Part shown: piece by piece, positions 1 through 38,160 of the stretch
How the letters are laid out: each line of letters begins with the position of its first letter
Position numbering within the stretch: position 1 is the first letter of the stretch
Assembly (NCBI RefSeq): GCF_004297105.1
Contig: NZ_SCVE01000012.1
Location: forward strand, 868,001 to 932,000
Length of the DNA: 64,000 bases
Direction: 5' to 3'
Origin: Herbiconiux sp.
Lineage (GTDB): Bacteria > Actinomycetota > Actinomycetes > Actinomycetales > Microbacteriaceae
Program-made: the position numbers and the translations under genes
The notes under the pieces: generated by a model
The model's input: only the letters and a program-made list of their open reading frames with translations
What the model was told of the DNA's origin: nothing
The model's database searches: none

Positions 1-1315
1 TCTCGAGGGTGCCGAGCCCGGTGCTCAGCTGATCGGCGCCCGACTGCAGCTGCTGGGTGCCGGCGGCGAGCTGCGACGATCCGGATGCGGCGCTCGCGAT
101 CCCGTTCGTCAGCGTGGGCGCTGAGTCCGCGAGCTGCTGCGTGCCCGTTGCCAGCTGGGAGCCCCCGGATGCCGCGCTCGCGATCCCGGTGCTGAGCGTC
201 GGAGCGCTGTTCGCCAGTTTCTGCGTGCCCGCGGCGAGTTCGGCGCTGCCGGTGGCGAGCGCGCCGATCTTCTGGTTCGTGCTCTGCACGAGGGCGTTGC
301 CGTCGTCGATCGCAGTGCCGACCTGGTCGACCTGGGCGAGGATGGCCGCCTTCTGCTCGTCGGTGAGAGACGTCTGGTTCAGCAGGTCGACGATGTCGGC
401 GCGCGCGGCCGGAACCTGGTCGGCGGCATCCTGAACCTGCGCGGCGAGCTGGGTCGACGCATCGGAGAGCTGCGCGTTGCCGGCGGCCACCTGCTGGGCG
501 CCGTCGTTGAGCTGGTTGGCCTGCGTGGGCAGGTCTGCAGAGCCCGACTGCAGCTGCTGCAGCCCCGAGTTCAGCTGCTGGGCGCCGTCGTTGAGGGCGG
601 ATGCCTGCGACGGGAGGTCGGCCGAGCCGGCCGCGAGCTGCTGGAGTCCCGCGTCGAGCTGGGTGGCTCCCGCGTTCGCGGAGGCGGTGCCCTGGGCGAG
701 CGTCGCCGCGCCATCCGCCGCGCTGGTGGCGCCGTCGGTGAGCTGGGTGGCGCCGTCGACGGCATCGGTGAGATTGGAGCGCACGGTGGCGAAGCCGTCG
801 AGCAGGGTGAGCGCCGCCTGCTTGCCCACCTTCTCGGTGATGCTCGCACGCACCTTCTCGGCCACCTGGCCGGCGATCGTGGTGGCGAGGAAGCTGTTGG
901 TGTCGTTGGTGGTGAGCGTCACCACGGCCTGCGTGGGAGCGTTGCCGCTCGCCGAGGTGAGGGCGCGGGAGAAGTCGGGCCCGAGGCTCAGGATGAAGTC
1001 GAAGCGTCCGTCGCGAACGCCGGCCTCCGCATCCTCGGCGCTCGTGACCTGCCAGCCGACCGAGGCGTCGTCGAGCAGCTGGTCGCGCACCTGGTCGCCG
1101 TAGTTGACGGGCTGGCCGTCGAGCGTCGACCCGGTGTCCTCCACCACGAGCGCCACCGGCACGTCTTTGAGGTTGCCGTAGGGATCGTTGTTGGCCCAGA
1201 GGTAGAGACCCGCATAGAGGATGGGCACGAGCATGAGCGCCACGAGGGCGAGCCGGGCCATGCTCGACGCGGTGAGGCGTTTCAGCTCGGAGGAGACGAG
1301 GGTGAGGATCTTCAT
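1..1315 (-). CDS. YhgE/Pip-family membrane protein, N-terminal part (runs off window)
   Basis: The reverse strand is open from ATG 1315 to the window edge (438 codons). It starts MKILTLVSSELKRLT, followed by a hydrophobic segment at about residues 18-40, then the extracellular start typical of YhgE/Pip proteins (NNDPYGNLKDVPVALV). From about residue 165 on it is a long helical region of QL..GA.QL..G repeats, visible in the DNA as near-duplicated blocks around 60-260 and 480-700. The C-terminal ABC-2-like membrane half lies outside the window. Its ATG overlaps the stop of the ABC-like gene by four bases (ATGA), so translation is probably coupled. YhgE/Pip proteins are linked to phage infection or export, with no settled substrate. 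The family call is solid; the role is not. Confidence 0.88.
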   Translation of the reverse strand, partial: MKILTLVSSELKRLTASSMARLALVALMLVPILYAGLYLWANNDPYGNLKDVPVALVVEDTGSTLDGQPVNYGDQVRDQLLDDASVGWQVTSAEDAEAGVRDGRFDFILSLGPDFSRALTSASGNAPTQAVVTLTTNDTNSFLATTIAGQVAEKVRASITEKVGKQAALTLLDGFATVRSNLTDAVDGATQLTDGATSAADGAATLAQGTASANAGATQLDAGLQQLAAGSADLPSQASALNDGAQQLNSGLQQLQSGSADLPTQANQLNDGAQQVAAGNAQLSDASTQLAAQVQDAADQVPAARADIVDLLNQTSLTDEQKAAILAQVDQVGTAIDDGNALVQSTNQKIGALATGSAELAAGTQKLANSAPTLSTGIASAASGGSQLATGTQQLADSAPTLTNGIASAASGSSQLAAGTQQLQSGADQLSTGLGTLE

Positions 1316-2097
1316 TTTCCGGCTTCTTCGGGTTTTTGGGCTTGGGGTTCTTCGGGGGTGGGCTGGGGCGGATCGGTTGGATGCCTCCGCCCATAGACGC
1401 CCGCCACACCTGAGGCATCCAACCGATCCGCCCCAGCCGGGCCTTGGGGAGTGCTCGCCGGCTGCTTCGGGAGGGGGGTGGGGGTGTTGGCTGGCTCCGG
1501 TTGGGGGAGGAGGGGGAGGGTGATTTCGGCGCTCGGGGCGCCGCAGACGACGAGCACGGCGAAGTCTCGGGCGGCGAGGTCGGAGGCGACGGCGAGCCAG
1601 TCGCGCGGGTCGCCGCCGTGGCGGTCGGGGGCGGTGATGACGAGGCCCTCCACGCCGCGACGGAAGGCGGCGAGCTCGGCCAGGATGCGCACGCGGATCG
1701 CGGCGGGCACGTCGGCGATGCGCACGGCCGCGTAGTCGGAGCCGCCCGCATCCGCGATGGTGGCGGCCACGGTGGCACGGCTCGTCGAGCGGCCGGCGAA
1801 CATGAGTTCCTCGCGCACCACGGTGCGCAGCGGCAGATCGGCGGCGGGCTCGCTCACCTCGGGGGCATCGACGAGGGCGACGCGCTCCTGGATGAGGGCC
1901 GCGTCGTCGACGCCGTCGAGAGTCACCACGCCGCTGTCGCTGCGCATCCGACCGCTCAGGATGAGGGACAGCACGGTGGGCTGGTCGCCCACCTCGGCCT
2001 CGGCGATGGTGACCCGCCCGGTCTCGAAGACGACGGTGCGCTCGGGCAGCGGGATGCCCGCGTGGCCCTTGCTGATGCGGTCGGCGACGATCTTCAT
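1312..2097 (-). CDS. Degenerate ABC-ATPase-like protein carrying a palindromic in-frame insert
   Basis: 261 residues from ATG 2097, which overlaps the TetR stop (ATGA). Order and length resemble a small ABC ATPase: a beta-rich start, a region ending VLSLILSGRM where the Walker A loop should be, a signature-like stretch (DVPAAIRVRILAELAAFRRG) and a Walker-B-like hydrophobic strand (GLVITAPD). No GxxGxGKS/T loop is present, so ATP hydrolysis is doubtful. The last 60 residues are Pro-rich and contain the palindromic element (PAGADRLDASGVAGVYGRR...). It sits between a TetR gene and a YhgE/Pip gene, suggesting a partner or regulator of that membrane protein. It could also be a pseudo-ATPase scaffold. 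A longer reading upstream of 2097 would merely overlap TetR out of frame. Confidence 0.7.
   Translation of the reverse strand: MKIVADRISKGHAGIPLPERTVVFETGRVTIAEAEVGDQPTVLSLILSGRMRSDSGVVTLDGVDDAALIQERVALVDAPEVSEPAADLPLRTVVREELMFAGRSTSRATVAATIADAGGSDYAAVRIADVPAAIRVRILAELAAFRRGVEGLVITAPDRHGGDPRDWLAVASDLAARDFAVLVVCGAPSAEITLPLLPQPEPANTPTPLPKQPASTPQGPAGADRLDASGVAGVYGRRHPTDPPQPTPEEPQAQKPEEAGK
1361..1438. repeat. Palindromic in-frame coding element, copy A
   Basis: A perfect 27-bp inverted repeat (1361-1387 and 1412-1438) flanks a 24-base centre (1388-1411). On the coding (minus) strand the centre contains GGTGTGGCGGGCGTC followed by TATGGGC. It lies inside the C-terminal, Pro-rich end of the ABC-like gene and is translated as about 26 residues around ASGVAGVYG. 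A second copy at 18597-18674 has nearly the same centre but different, still complementary arms. Confidence 0.9.
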
Positions 2098-16344: not shown

Positions 16345-16853
16345 CGCATCACATCCCTCTCCTGCTCGCTGGGTTCTCTCGTGTGCGGCACTCCGTCGTC
16401 GTCATCCGCGTCGCCGCCCTCTTCGAGCACCGTGCGCACCGCTTCGTCGTCGTCTTCGAGCGAGGTGTGGAAGATCTCCGCCTGGTCGGCCTCCCTCGCC
16501 TCCTCGTCGTCTTCGTCGGCGATGACGTCGTCGCCCTCGTCGCCGAGGTTCGACAACCACCAGGAGCGATAGATGAGAGCCAGGATGAACGCGGTGATAC
16601 CGAAGTTGATCACGATCGCGGTGAGCATGAGCACCTGCGGAACGGGGTCGACGATGTCGGCGCCGGTGACGCCGTCGTCGATGATCGGCGAGGTTCCGGA
16701 ACGGCCCGACATGATGAAGATGAGCAGGTTCGTGGCATTGCCGACCAGCAGGAAGCCGATCAGGATGCGGGTGAGGCTCTTCTCGAGCATCACGTACACG
16801 CCCGTGCCGTACATCACGGCCATCAGCACCACGAGGGTGAGGGATGCGCTCAC
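16341..16853 (-). CDS. mrpC: Mrp Na+/H+ antiporter subunit C
   Basis: 170 residues from GTG 16853 (GTGA overlap with mrpA). NuoK-like three-helix core (MYGTGVYVMLEKSLTRILIG, LLVGNATNLLIFIMSG, QVLMLTAIVINFGITAFILA), then an unusually long acidic tail (DEGDDVIADEDDEEAREADQ and beyond, about 70 residues) that typical MrpC proteins lack. The tail is probably cytoplasmic. Confidence 0.94.
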   Translation of the reverse strand: MSASLTLVVLMAVMYGTGVYVMLEKSLTRILIGFLLVGNATNLLIFIMSGRSGTSPIIDDGVTGADIVDPVPQVLMLTAIVINFGITAFILALIYRSWWLSNLGDEGDDVIADEDDEEAREADQAEIFHTSLEDDDEAVRTVLEEGGDADDDDGVPHTREPSEQERDVMR

Positions 16854-19800
16854 GCGTCACCTCCCGGGGTGCTCGATGCGGGTCCGGATGCGGCGCCGCC
16901 CGCGTTGCGGCTGATCGCGCCGCTCGTCTCTCGGCTGGCGACCCGCCCACGGGTCTCGGCCTCGTCGGCGGTGACCGAGTGGTCGTCGGGGGCCGCATCC
17001 ACGTCGTCCTCCGCCTGCTGGCGGTCGACCTCGCCGCCGAGCGCACGGAGGATGTCGAGCACCACACCGATCACCACGAGATAGACACCGATGTCGAAGA
17101 TGGTGGACGTGCCGAAGGAGACGTAGCCGAGCACCGGCAGTTCGGTGGAGAAGTAGGCCGAGGTGAGAACATCCGCACCCAGGAAGAGAGAGCCGACGGC
17201 GGTGCCGGTGGCCAGCAGCATCCCGGCCCCGAGCAGCACGCCCGGGCCGATGGGGATGGTCTCGCCGAGTTCGTAGCGGCCGCCGGCGAGGTAGCGCGCG
17301 ATCAGCGCGAGCCCGGCCACGAGACCGGCCGCGAAGCCACCGCCGGGCGCGTTGTGACCGGCGAAGAGCAGGAAGATCGACACCACGATCGCGGGGTGGA
17401 AGATGAGGCGCACGAGCACCTCGAGGATGATCGAGCGGTTCTCGGGCGAGAGCGTCTTGCCGCCGAGCAGCCAGGAGTGCTGACGGTCGTCGCCCTCGCC
17501 GCCGTCGTCGACCGAGTTGCTGGTGTGGGGGTCGTCGACGAGCTGCACACGCTCCCGGCCCTGGCGGCGCCCGCGCGACTCGCGGAGGCGAGGGATGGTG
17601 AAGTTGCGGCCCGTGACGAAGATGAGGCTCGCCACGCCCGTGGCGACGACGATGAGAACCGAGAGTTCGTTCATGGTGTCCCAGGCGCGGATGTCGACGA
17701 GCATCACGTTCACCACGTTCAGCCCGTGACCCTCCTCCACCGCGAGGCGGGCGAGTTCTTCGCTCATGGTTCCCGCCTGGCGCGCGCCCAGGGCGATGAA
17801 ACCGACGAGACCCATGGTGACGCCGACGAGCGTACCGATGATGATGCGGCGGCCTCGGCGCACGGGCCGGTTGTGCTGTGCGATCTTCTGCGGCAGGCGG
17901 CGCAGCACCAGCACGAAGACCACGATGGTGACGGTCTCGACCAGGGCCTGGGTGAGGGCGAGGTCGGGGGCGCCGTGGAAGGCGAAGAGCACGACCATGC
18001 CGAAACCGGTGGCGCCCACGAGCAGCACGGCGGCGAGGCGGTGCGTGGCCCGCGCGGCCATGACGGCGGCCACCGCCATCGCGGCGGCCACGAAGACCTG
18101 CGCGGGGAAGTCCCAGAGCACGAACTCCGTGGGCCAGGTGCGGTTGAGGGCGGTCGTGCCGCCGAGGGTGAGCACGAACACCAGGAGGATCGTGCCGAGG
18201 TACTGCGGCAGGCCGCCCTTCTGGGCGAAGAGCGTCACCTTCGCGGCGGCGAGGTCGACGGCGCGCACGATCGACCAGTAGCTGCGGGCGGCGTCGACGA
18301 CGTGCGGCACCCTCTTCTGCAGGCGGGCGAAGGGCTTGCGGATGGCGAACAGGGCGAGACCCAGGGCGATCACGACGGCCGAGATGCCGAGAGCGGGCTC
18401 GAGACCGTGCCAGAGGGCGAGGTGGTAGGTGCCGTGGCCCTCGTCGCCGGCGACGTAGGCGAAGTCGTGGGGGAAGGTGTCGGCGTAGGTCTCGAGGGCG
18501 GGGCTGATGATGCCCGCTGCTAGTCCGAGGGTGATTGTGGCGATCGTGAGGATGAGGGGGGAGATCAGGATGAGGTTGTCTGGTTTGTGGCCGTGGGGCT
18601 CCGGCTGATGGTGTTGGGACCTCTGCCCATGGACGCCCGCCACACCGGAGGCCCCAACACCATCAGCCGGAGCCGGGTTCGTGGCCGGGATCTTCTTCGT
18701 GGCGAAAGCACCCCAGAAGAATCTCGCGCTGTACGCGACCGTGAGGATCGAGCCGACGGCTACGCCGATCAGCGCGACCCAACCCCAGGGTTCTCCTTCT
18801 TGGCCGGCGTCCAGGAAGGCCGTCAAGACGGCTTCCTTTGCGACGAAGCCCAAGAGGGGTGGGATGCCGGCCATGGAGGCCACGGCGATGAAGGCGACCG
18901 TCGCCAGGAGGGGGCGGCGGCGGCCCAGGCCTGTGATCTCGCGGAGGTCGCGGGTGCCCTCGTCGTGGTCGATGATGCCGACCACGAGGAAGAGGGTTGC
19001 CTTGAAGAGGGCGTGGCCCAGGAGGAGCGCGGCTCCCGCCAGGGCGGCGTCACGGGTGCCGAAGCCGACCACGACGGTGAGGAAGCCGAGCTGGCTGACG
19101 GTTCCGTAGGCGAGCAGCAGCTTCAGATCGTTCTGGCGCAGGGAGCGCCAGGCGCCGAGCAGCATGGTCCAGACGCCGATCGTCACGAGCACCGGGGTCC
19201 AGCCGGGGGTGTCGGCGAAACCGGGGGCCAGGCGAGCGATGAGGTAGATGCCCGCCTTCACCATGGCCGCCGCGTGCAGGTAGGCGCTCACCGGCGTGGG
19301 CGCGGCCATCGCCGCGGGCAGCCAGAAGTGGAACGGCACGAGGGCCGACTTCGACAGGGCGCCGACCAGGATGAGCATGATCGCGGTGGTGACGAGACCG
19401 GAACCCGGGGGCGGATCGGAGACGAGCTGCGCGATCGAGGTGGTGCCCGCATCCGTGGTCAGCAGAACGATGCCGACCAGCATCGCGAGCCCGCCGAAGG
19501 TGGTGACGAGCAGCGCCTGGAGGGCGGCGCCTCGGCTCTCCTTGCGGTCGGTGTAGTGGCCGATGAGGAGGTAGGAGAGAACGCTCGTGATCTCCCAGAA
19601 CATGAACATGATGTAGATGTCGTCGGCGGTGACGAGGCCGTACATCGTGCCGGCGAAGGCGAGCAGGAGCGCGGCGAAACGGCCGAGCTGCGGCTCGCGG
19701 TCGGAGAAGTAGCGTGCGCAGTAGACCAGCACGAGGGCACCGACGCCGGTGACCACGAGCGCGAGCAGCCACGAGAGGGTGTCGAGTCGGAACGACAGTG

Positions 19801-20014
19801 CGATGCCGAGCTGGGGGATCCACGGCACCACGTCGGTGAGCTCGCCCGGCCCGCCCTCAGAGGTGCCGAGAACCGCACCGGTCTGCGTGAGAGTCAGCAC
19901 GAACACGGCCGCCGGAAGGGCCGCCACCAGGTAGAAGACCCGGGTGCCGAGAGCCCTGGTGAGCAGCGGAGTGAGCGCTGAAAGTCCCGCGAACAGCAGC
20001 AGGACCAGGATCAC
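16850..20014 (-). CDS. mrpA: Mrp Na+/H+ antiporter subunit A fused to B, with palindromic in-frame insert
   Basis: 1054 residues from GTG 20014 with GAGGAGT upstream. Residues 1-about 780 form MrpA (NuoL-like helices, FWEITSVLSYLLIGHY, KSALVPFHFWLPAAMAAPTP, AYGTVSQLGFLTVVVGF); the C-terminal part from about 880 is an MrpB domain (FHPAIVVSIFLLFAGHNAPG, PVLGYVSFGTSTIFDIGVYL). The operon has no separate mrpB, so the fusion supplies it. Between helices, at about residues 445-475, the palindromic element adds PAPADGVGASGVAGVHGQR and a His-rich stretch (HHQPEPHGHKPDN). First gene of the operon; all six genes overlap. It exports Na+ and helps pH and salt tolerance. Confidence 0.95.
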   Translation of the reverse strand: MILVLLLFAGLSALTPLLTRALGTRVFYLVAALPAAVFVLTLTQTGAVLGTSEGGPGELTDVVPWIPQLGIALSFRLDTLSWLLALVVTGVGALVLVYCARYFSDREPQLGRFAALLLAFAGTMYGLVTADDIYIMFMFWEITSVLSYLLIGHYTDRKESRGAALQALLVTTFGGLAMLVGIVLLTTDAGTTSIAQLVSDPPPGSGLVTTAIMLILVGALSKSALVPFHFWLPAAMAAPTPVSAYLHAAAMVKAGIYLIARLAPGFADTPGWTPVLVTIGVWTMLLGAWRSLRQNDLKLLLAYGTVSQLGFLTVVVGFGTRDAALAGAALLLGHALFKATLFLVVGIIDHDEGTRDLREITGLGRRRPLLATVAFIAVASMAGIPPLLGFVAKEAVLTAFLDAGQEGEPWGWVALIGVAVGSILTVAYSARFFWGAFATKKIPATNPAPADGVGASGVAGVHGQRSQHHQPEPHGHKPDNLILISPLILTIATITLGLAAGIISPALETYADTFPHDFAYVAGDEGHGTYHLALWHGLEPALGISAVVIALGLALFAIRKPFARLQKRVPHVVDAARSYWSIVRAVDLAAAKVTLFAQKGGLPQYLGTILLVFVLTLGGTTALNRTWPTEFVLWDFPAQVFVAAAMAVAAVMAARATHRLAAVLLVGATGFGMVVLFAFHGAPDLALTQALVETVTIVVFVLVLRRLPQKIAQHNRPVRRGRRIIIGTLVGVTMGLVGFIALGARQAGTMSEELARLAVEEGHGLNVVNVMLVDIRAWDTMNELSVLIVVATGVASLIFVTGRNFTIPRLRESRGRRQGRERVQLVDDPHTSNSVDDGGEGDDRQHSWLLGGKTLSPENRSIILEVLVRLIFHPAIVVSIFLLFAGHNAPGGGFAAGLVAGLALIARYLAGGRYELGETIPIGPGVLLGAGMLLATGTAVGSLFLGADVLTSAYFSTELPVLGYVSFGTSTIFDIGVYLVVIGVVLDILRALGGEVDRQQAEDDVDAAPDDHSVTADEAETRGRVASRETSGAISRNAGGAASGPASSTPGGDA
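18597..18674. repeat. Palindromic in-frame coding element, copy B
   Basis: 27-base arms (18597-18623 and 18648-18674) around a 24-base centre. The arms are complementary except one position (18619/18652), which is a G-U pair in the mrpA mRNA. The centre differs from copy A (1388-1411) at three of 24 bases, whereas the arms agree with copy A at only about 17 of 27. The reading frame through the centre is the same as in copy A, giving ASGVAGVHG against ASGVAGVYG. Confidence 0.9.
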
Positions 20015-23928: not shown

Positions 23929-23972
23929 TGTGAGTGGGTACTCACAACTCTAGATGTGAGTACCCACTCACA
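23929..23972. promoter_or_regulatory. Doubled TetR operator between hydrolase and TetR genes
   Basis: An 18-base block (23929-23946) and its exact reverse complement (23955-23972) flank an 8-base spacer. Each block is itself nearly palindromic around TGAGT-GGGT-ACTCA, so two adjacent dimer sites are likely. It lies between the divergent hydrolase (start 23865) and TetR (start 23988) genes. Confidence 0.82.
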
Positions 23973-38039: not shown

Positions 38040-38045
38040 TCTCGG

Positions 38046-38160
38046 GCTACTCGACCAGCGCAAGCTCTGCGCTGGTCGAGTAGCCGCGGCCGCCCTTCGA
38101 CGAGCTCAGGGAACGCCGCGGCCGACGCGTATCGAGACCACCCGCCGATCACCGAAACCA
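38046..38160. repeat. REP-like intergenic palindrome between the GH43 genes
   Basis: A perfect 17-bp stem (38046-38062 / 38068-38084) with loop AGCTC contains CTACTCGACCAGCG and its complement. It is followed by CCGCGG-rich inverted sequence with CCCTTCGACGAGCTCAGG and TATCGAGACC. From memory, this CTACTCGACC ... TATCGAGACC arrangement is a common interspersed repeat of Microbacteriaceae. It may also end transcription between the two co-directional genes. Confidence 0.75.

Follow-up and report, generated by a model that had tools for sequence, protein, structure and literature searches.

The two long palindromes on the minus strand of the window (the whole 64,000-nucleotide stretch of Herbiconiux sp. 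DNA analyzed here) belong to a dispersed family of hairpins in which the loop is conserved and the stem changes, with at least 66 matches over five genera of the host family and a further nine to long-stem relatives in model and pattern searches. As far as searched, this family is new as a family, its unusually long stems evolving in concert under a conserved loop. No description of such a hairpin family was found among open-licence PMC papers (titles and starts of abstracts), in line with the initial annotation, which knew of none in Microbacteriaceae, and the available text of a hairpin survey of 118,019 genomes (PMC13155455) contains no word beginning with Microbacteri-. The element is probably a small, non-autonomous, REP/BIME-like mobile palindrome that is mobilized in trans via its loop and has its stem re-matched by template switching, with coding insertions as a tolerated by-product.

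Copy 1 consists of a 5' arm at positions 1412-1438, a 24-nt loop at 1388-1411 (AGGTGTGGCGGGCGTCTATGGGCG on the minus strand), and a 3' arm at 1361-1387, and is followed by the 3' flank CACCCCCG (1353-1360), a C-rich tail of the type frequent in the family. In copy 2, also with its sense on the minus strand, the 5' arm lies at 18648-18674, the 24-nt loop (CGGTGTGGCGGGCGTCCATGGGCA on the minus strand) at 18624-18647, and the 3' arm at 18597-18623. The arms, delimited by an inverted-repeat scan (the loops also by pattern matching), are 27 nt each with a spacing of 24 nt in both copies; they are 100% complementary (27/27) in copy 1 and 96% complementary (26/27) in copy 2, where the single mismatch is a G.T on the loop strand. 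These are the first- and second-ranked of the 35 inverted-repeat pairs in the window scan; the remaining 27-nt pairs among the best 25 of the 35 are merely 70% complementary. The two copies share the loop core GGTGTGGCGGGCGTCYATGGGC on the minus strand and differ in their arm sequences. The first 15 bases of this core, GGTGTGGCGGGCGTC, have exactly two matches in the window, and allowing up to two mismatches yields four, versus 0.97 expected, so that the 15-mer says little by itself and the main evidence is the palindrome. Indeed, only about 7e-9 palindromes with 27/27 pairing and a loop of 3 to 60 nt are expected in random DNA of the same GC content and length, and the likelihood that the copy 1 palindrome arose by chance is negligible. 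The RNA folds have z scores of -6.0, -7.3, and -7.6. Both copies lie in open frames of the minus strand, where they read GVAGVYG (copy 1) and GVAGVHG (copy 2) in the same sense phase, which bears out the initial description of a perfect 27-bp inverted repeat with a 24-base center inside a coding region and of a second copy with the same center and frame in mrpA. Two other strong palindromes in the window, at 23929-23972 (21-nt arms, 95% complementary, 2 nt between) and 38045-38085 (18/18 arms, 5 nt between), are perhaps operator- or terminator-like.

At the thresholds used in the model and pattern searches, copies 1 and 2 are the only matches in the window's own genome. Relatives do carry further copies, a point on which the initial annotation had allowed for the opposite outcome. 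A loop pattern of 22 bases, allowing up to three mismatches, has 23 matches in 9 of the 16 genomes of the window's genus (5 for the reversed control pattern), and 16 of the 23, in seven genomes, lie within a palindrome with 24- to 34-nt arms and a 24-nt loop, one being counted as 28 owing to an inner mismatch. A covariance model built from the alignment of 25 copies has at least 17 sense matches in 7 of the 16 genomes of this genus, at least 27 in 5 of the 8 genomes of genus g75, and at least 19 in 5 of the 27 genomes of genus g82, these counts being lower bounds since at most 150 of many candidates per genome were scored; genomes G037 and G039 have one and two copies, respectively. Copy number, at least 1 to 9 per carrier genome, is low. 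A pattern search of 299 genomes of the host family produced matches in 21 (2 hits for the control pattern, read backwards), with a true palindrome at a match in 10 of the 21. The order-wide search scored 10 candidates per genome, which makes absence outside the host family weak evidence. Matches to the 15-mer in unrelated bacteria, seen in a contig scan, were taken as chance.

The typical unit is ∼75 to 90 nt long, with a stem of usually 22 to 30 bp, a conserved G-rich loop of 24 or 25 nt, and, often, a C-rich 3' tail. Among 60 distinct copies (palindrome score of at least 11, excluding long-stem relatives, near-identical duplicates, and later-fetched loci), a G-N-C-C-C tail is common (G in 38 of the 60, and C in 43, 41, and 44 at the third to fifth bases after the stem); the tail of the G247 subfamily differs. 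A pseudoknot between this tail and the loop was judged unlikely given the stem length. Family I has a 24-nt loop and family II a 25-nt loop with the core GGTTCGGCGGGCATCCTTGGGC; by our own comparison, 6 of the 22 core positions differ between the two families. The long-stem relatives (family III) come from the model search: of the nine matches, G007 has six and G014 the other three, and the window genome gave none. The seven family III loci that were read (L214, L215, L222, L223, L226, L227, and L229) have arms of 41 to 49 nt and a longer loop that shares about GGGTCTGGCGGGCGTC and holds a small hairpin of its own, such as GCGTCCGC-GAA-GCGGATGC.

In the alignment of 25 copies, standard pairs account for 97.1% of the 650 stem cells, a percentage favored by construction, as the structure was read off the same 25 sequences. 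Both sides have changed in 25 of the 26 pairs, and the covariation score is 0.972, versus a mean of 0.204 after shuffling and 0.09 to 0.17 in slid registers. Of the 14 invariant columns, 13 fall within the loop; the invariant columns include four G runs, from which the idea arises that the loop might fold into a G-quadruplex. Across the 60 distinct copies, 1,494 of the 1,560 stem pairs are Watson-Crick and 66 are not, and the worst stem has 6 mismatches. Comparison of the flanks shows that many of the elements occupy one and the same gene junction in several species, so the family has spread in part by vertical descent, and these shared sites allow stem changes to be followed. In 13 family I comparisons (L151/L153 match on just one of the two flanks, and the members of a trio are not independent of each other), there are 52 double changes that preserve Watson-Crick pairing, including 25 transversions, as well as 14 one-sided changes with a G.T, 11 other one-sided changes, and 5 unpaired doubles; differing stem pairs number 82 of 299, versus 25 of 286 loop bases (our own tally). 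Four of the 17 comparisons, with family II, were left out because their register was unsafe, L270/L263 and L197/L251 being the worst. Double transversions cannot pass via G.U, so either short-lived mismatches were missed or both arms change together. Template switching changes both arms at once and has been described as generating compensatory changes and as inverting loops or spacers (PMC8794818, PMC8604942); the stem double changes, along with the loop inversion described below, fit such a process. Arm matching could instead be selected rather than mutational.

According to a home-made codon-usage gene caller, 43 of the 60 distinct copies lie between genes and 16 inside genes (12 and 4), with 1 undetermined. 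The gap copies are found in 22 convergent, 19 tandem, and 2 divergent gaps, versus ∼11, 20, and 12 expected from gap length (chi-square P of 6e-5 for the 43 copies, with orthologs and dimers counted separately, so that the true evidence is weaker). In the tandem gaps, the genes are on the loop strand in 10 cases and on the other strand in 9; each class includes one of the two L201 copies, which were called as gap copies and are really inside acetate kinase. This absence of a strand bias led to the dropping of a suspected sense-transcript element. The stems show an asymmetry of their own: in the inner 20 pairs, which were recounted because the arm-extension score favored G.T, the loop strand has 30 G.T mismatches versus 6 A.C, or ∼21 versus 5 once shared ancestry is removed by hand (P of 0.0025). 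Taken with the lack of a transcriptional strand bias, this excess is consistent with folding of the strand that bears the G-rich loop, in the form of single-stranded DNA, RNA also being possible. A cis-acting RNA element of the host, such as an mRNA stabilizer or terminator at 3' ends, with the hairpin kept by selection on the RNA, would account for both the 3'-end bias of the copies and the G.T excess, but we consider it unlikely, as it agrees poorly with the even strand distribution in tandem gaps, with the C rather than T that often follows the stem, and with the location of copies inside coding genes in both orientations. It also has against it the lack of any match in Rfam (0 at the gathering threshold for nine loci), the sporadic carriage among species, and the nature of the neighbors: the 30 host and neighbor proteins tested are unrelated, and many are housekeeping proteins (two were without a family).

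Eight unrelated host genes have coding sequence on both flanks of the element. In the genes for MrpA, the ABC-like protein (in its tail), molybdopterin oxidoreductase, and amidohydrolase, the element is in the sense orientation and in the same phase, and the family II elements in the Lhr-like helicase and riboflavin synthase genes use the corresponding sense phase, that in riboflavin synthase being flipped in G202, where it stays open. The acetate kinase gene has the element in antisense at one of its two places and in a different sense phase at the second, and the dnaX copy is antisense; the N terminus of an aminotransferase is a further, uncertain coding case. One sense phase is used, accordingly, in 6 of the 8 host genes. 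Translation in the GVAGVYG phase gives a Gly/Ser-rich peptide, versus Trp/Arg- or Cys/Arg-containing peptides in the other sense phases, so selection after insertion can explain the frame preference.

These data bear out the suggestion in the initial annotation of a small mobile element that tolerates being coding, in that the palindromes form a dispersed family and can be read in frame as protein. They run counter to its claim of a fixed reading frame, given the several frames and both orientations in use; nor are the copies spread equally over all frames within one protein domain, the GVAGVYG phase being preferred and the hosts unrelated. Its comparison with insertion of Rickettsia palindromic elements (RPEs) into proteins stands as far as in-frame occurrence in unrelated genes is concerned and fails on the location of the copies, mostly between genes, and on the frame, which make the family more REP/BIME-like. 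An RPE-like element adapted to coding and selected for a fixed peptide, SGVAGVYGQ, would explain the shared sense phase in 6 of 8 genes, but it appears quite improbable in view of the intergenic majority, the use of antisense and of another sense phase, and the riboflavin synthase copy, which was flipped and is still open.

Three host genes, mrpA, the ABC-like gene, and acetate kinase, have empty orthologous sites, of the kind that the initial annotation had proposed to compare. The ABC-like gene (positions 1312-2097, minus strand, 261 aa) carries copy 1 in a hypervariable C-terminal tail, at residues 220 to 246; its product matches no Pfam family at an E value of 1e-5. The gene is present in all 16 genomes of the window's genus, and covariance-model matches overlap it in G000, G011, and G015 only; the 8 of the 16 tails that were readable by script are filled in these three and empty in G013, G007, G003, G012, and G004. 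Copy 2 is in a hydrophilic linker of an MrpA-like antiporter ORF (16850-20014, minus strand, 1,054 aa), a putative label that comes from the initial annotation and our own reading of the sequence rather than from a family search. The mrpA gene was found in 15 genomes, and of the 14 linkers read, 3 are filled (G000, G001, and G005, with stems that differ among the three) and 11 are empty and shorter; the empty sites, checked for target-derived arms, are strongly diverged. The hexamer GGATGC recurs in the linkers of 8 of the 11 orthologs without the element and is possibly an overrepresented oligomer in this genus. In the mrpA gene of G001 (L280/L150), a tandem duplication follows the 3' arm of the element, and PQKLQPEPT is repeated in the protein. 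Acetate kinase is filled in G089, G310, and G202, and twice in G151, and is empty in 2 of the 6 matched genomes (G308 and G309, after a conserved ERIGE); G247 and G286 have no acetate kinase match at the threshold used. In the G151 gene (L201), two opposite elements lie in one open frame and add many residues compared with the empty orthologs.

Movement of the whole hairpin follows from near-identical copies at unmatched sites. Three copies in G247 (L197, L198, and L244) have nearly the same stem and share a few flanking bases, and the 1.4-kb flanks of their sites do not match each other. Likewise, the copies at L151 (G001) and L158 (G009), again at nonmatching sites, have stems that are the same except for one base and share the 8-base tail GTCCCCAC. 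Local production of immobile palindromes by template switching, in which chance or constraint would preserve the loop, is a very unlikely explanation and does not give this pattern: template switching can create perfect stems (PMC8794818), but one 22-nt core is common to unrelated loci, and the arms, too, are the same in the G247 set and in the L151/L158 pair, so that this origin was already disfavored.

At the end of the riboflavin synthase gene, the loop is oriented one way in G310 and G089 and the opposite way in G202; the arms match, and both flanks remain colinear right up to the palindrome, so that the 25-nt loop was inverted in place between species. All four pairs of copies within 400 nt of each other (one in G151, one in G089, and two in G292) are arranged divergently. 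Such dimers fit the acetate kinase case better than a loop flip does: of the two opposite copies in G151, the first resembles the copy in G202 and the second resembles the copy in G089 and G310. In both G011 and G015, two inverted copies with nearly the same arms (L147 and L148) lie in different genes at a distance of 3.3 kb, a situation that may reflect gene conversion or local spread; a composite transposon was rejected, no recognizable transposase being among the ORFs listed between the copies in G011. The junction of the DDAH-like and aminotransferase genes (L230, L266, and L267) is occupied in two genera by elements that differ in loop family and orientation, and is thus a recurrent site. 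No target-site duplication could be defined, none being seen at the dispersed copies or the acetate kinase sites, and no autonomous element with matching terminal repeats was met in a test for MITEs, the arms differing between copies.

Several candidate mobilizers and sources were considered and set aside. Y1_Tnp is the transposase domain of RAYT and IS200/IS605. Of 37 genomes, one has it, the noncarrier G004, and it is absent from the carriers searched (positive in 5 of 14 controls; G039 was outside the set), and a RAYT/Y1 transposase was rejected on its absence from the carriers among these 37 genomes. The reverse transcriptase domain RVT_1 occurs in 8 of the 37, four of them carriers (G009, G310, G292, and G311), a distribution not linked to carriage. 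A phage or plasmid origin was likewise rejected: two scans of viral contigs yielded no exact loop match, and copy 1 had no match in plasmids or phages.

Among known systems, the family resembles the REP/BIME/REPIN elements (GTAG, CGTC), described as small palindromes that occur in convergent and tandem gaps, form inverted dimers, are in some cases intragenic, including in replication and repair genes, and have G.T pairs in the stem (PMC3733652). The stems here are 15 to 34 bp long, mostly 22 to 30 bp, versus 5 to 13 and 8 to 9 bp in the REPs of that description (PMC3733652). Unlike REPs, these elements conserve a 24- to 25-nt loop and vary in the stem, have few copies, and, in the 60 copies, show no GTAG/CGTC consensus at either end of the stem; GTAG is present after the stem in two copies from G247, L197 and, at a displaced position, L244. 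Unlike RAYT-linked REPs, they are not accompanied by a Y1 transposase in the carriers searched, and the family is not a member of that group. RPEs share the in-frame palindromes in unrelated proteins; as described, they are ∼150 bp long, nearly half of them are intragenic (PMC10969869), and their repeat identity is lost over time (PMC6649704), in contrast to the mostly intergenic copies, maintained arm identity, and inconsistent frame seen here. The coding palindromes of Nematomorpha mitochondria, for which repeat conversion by template switching has been proposed, likewise have perfect arms within genes, but here the setting is a bacterial chromosome and a dispersed family with a shared loop, of which the available text on Nematomorpha gives no counterpart (PMC6649704). 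Active maintenance of inverted repeats has been described in Caenorhabditis (PMC1803023). The stem double changes and the loop inversion are like the arm homogenization and spacer inversion ascribed to template switching, where the inverted loops described are of ∼2 to 8 nt, versus 25 nt and a dispersed family here (PMC8794818, PMC8604942). By analogy, the likeness seems to be divided among REPINs for dispersal, template-switch hairpins for stem evolution, and RPEs for the occasional coding insertions.

For the mobile REP/BIME-like palindrome that we favor, the steps might be as follows. A candidate trans-acting enzyme would recognize the loop and move the element as a single-stranded hairpin; after insertion, the arms would be repeatedly re-matched by template switching in replication, such that the stem sequence could drift fast and stay paired and the loop could flip. 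Insertions into genes would survive only if the frame is open and the site is a flexible linker, loop, or tail; this would explain both the coding copies and the preferred frame. Counting against this reading are the lack of a mobilizer among those searched for, the low copy number, the absence of a definable target-site duplication, the shared orthologous sites, the imperfect stems, and the chance that selection rather than mutation matches the arms. More tentatively, the element could be one whose heritable identity resides in the loop only: a single-strand hairpin replicator, served by a putative enzyme that reads the G-rich loop, with the stem rewritten and the loop flipped by template switching. 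If that is true, the stem would be a free-running recorder of bacterial template-switch events.

In this natural collection of hairpins, orthologous sites preserve a readable record of dozens of double changes and of one loop inversion, which makes the rate and the rules of bacterial template switching measurable. The family also supplies clear examples of palindromes tolerated within conserved enzymes, such as acetate kinase, and points to a further mobilizer in genomes that lack RAYTs.
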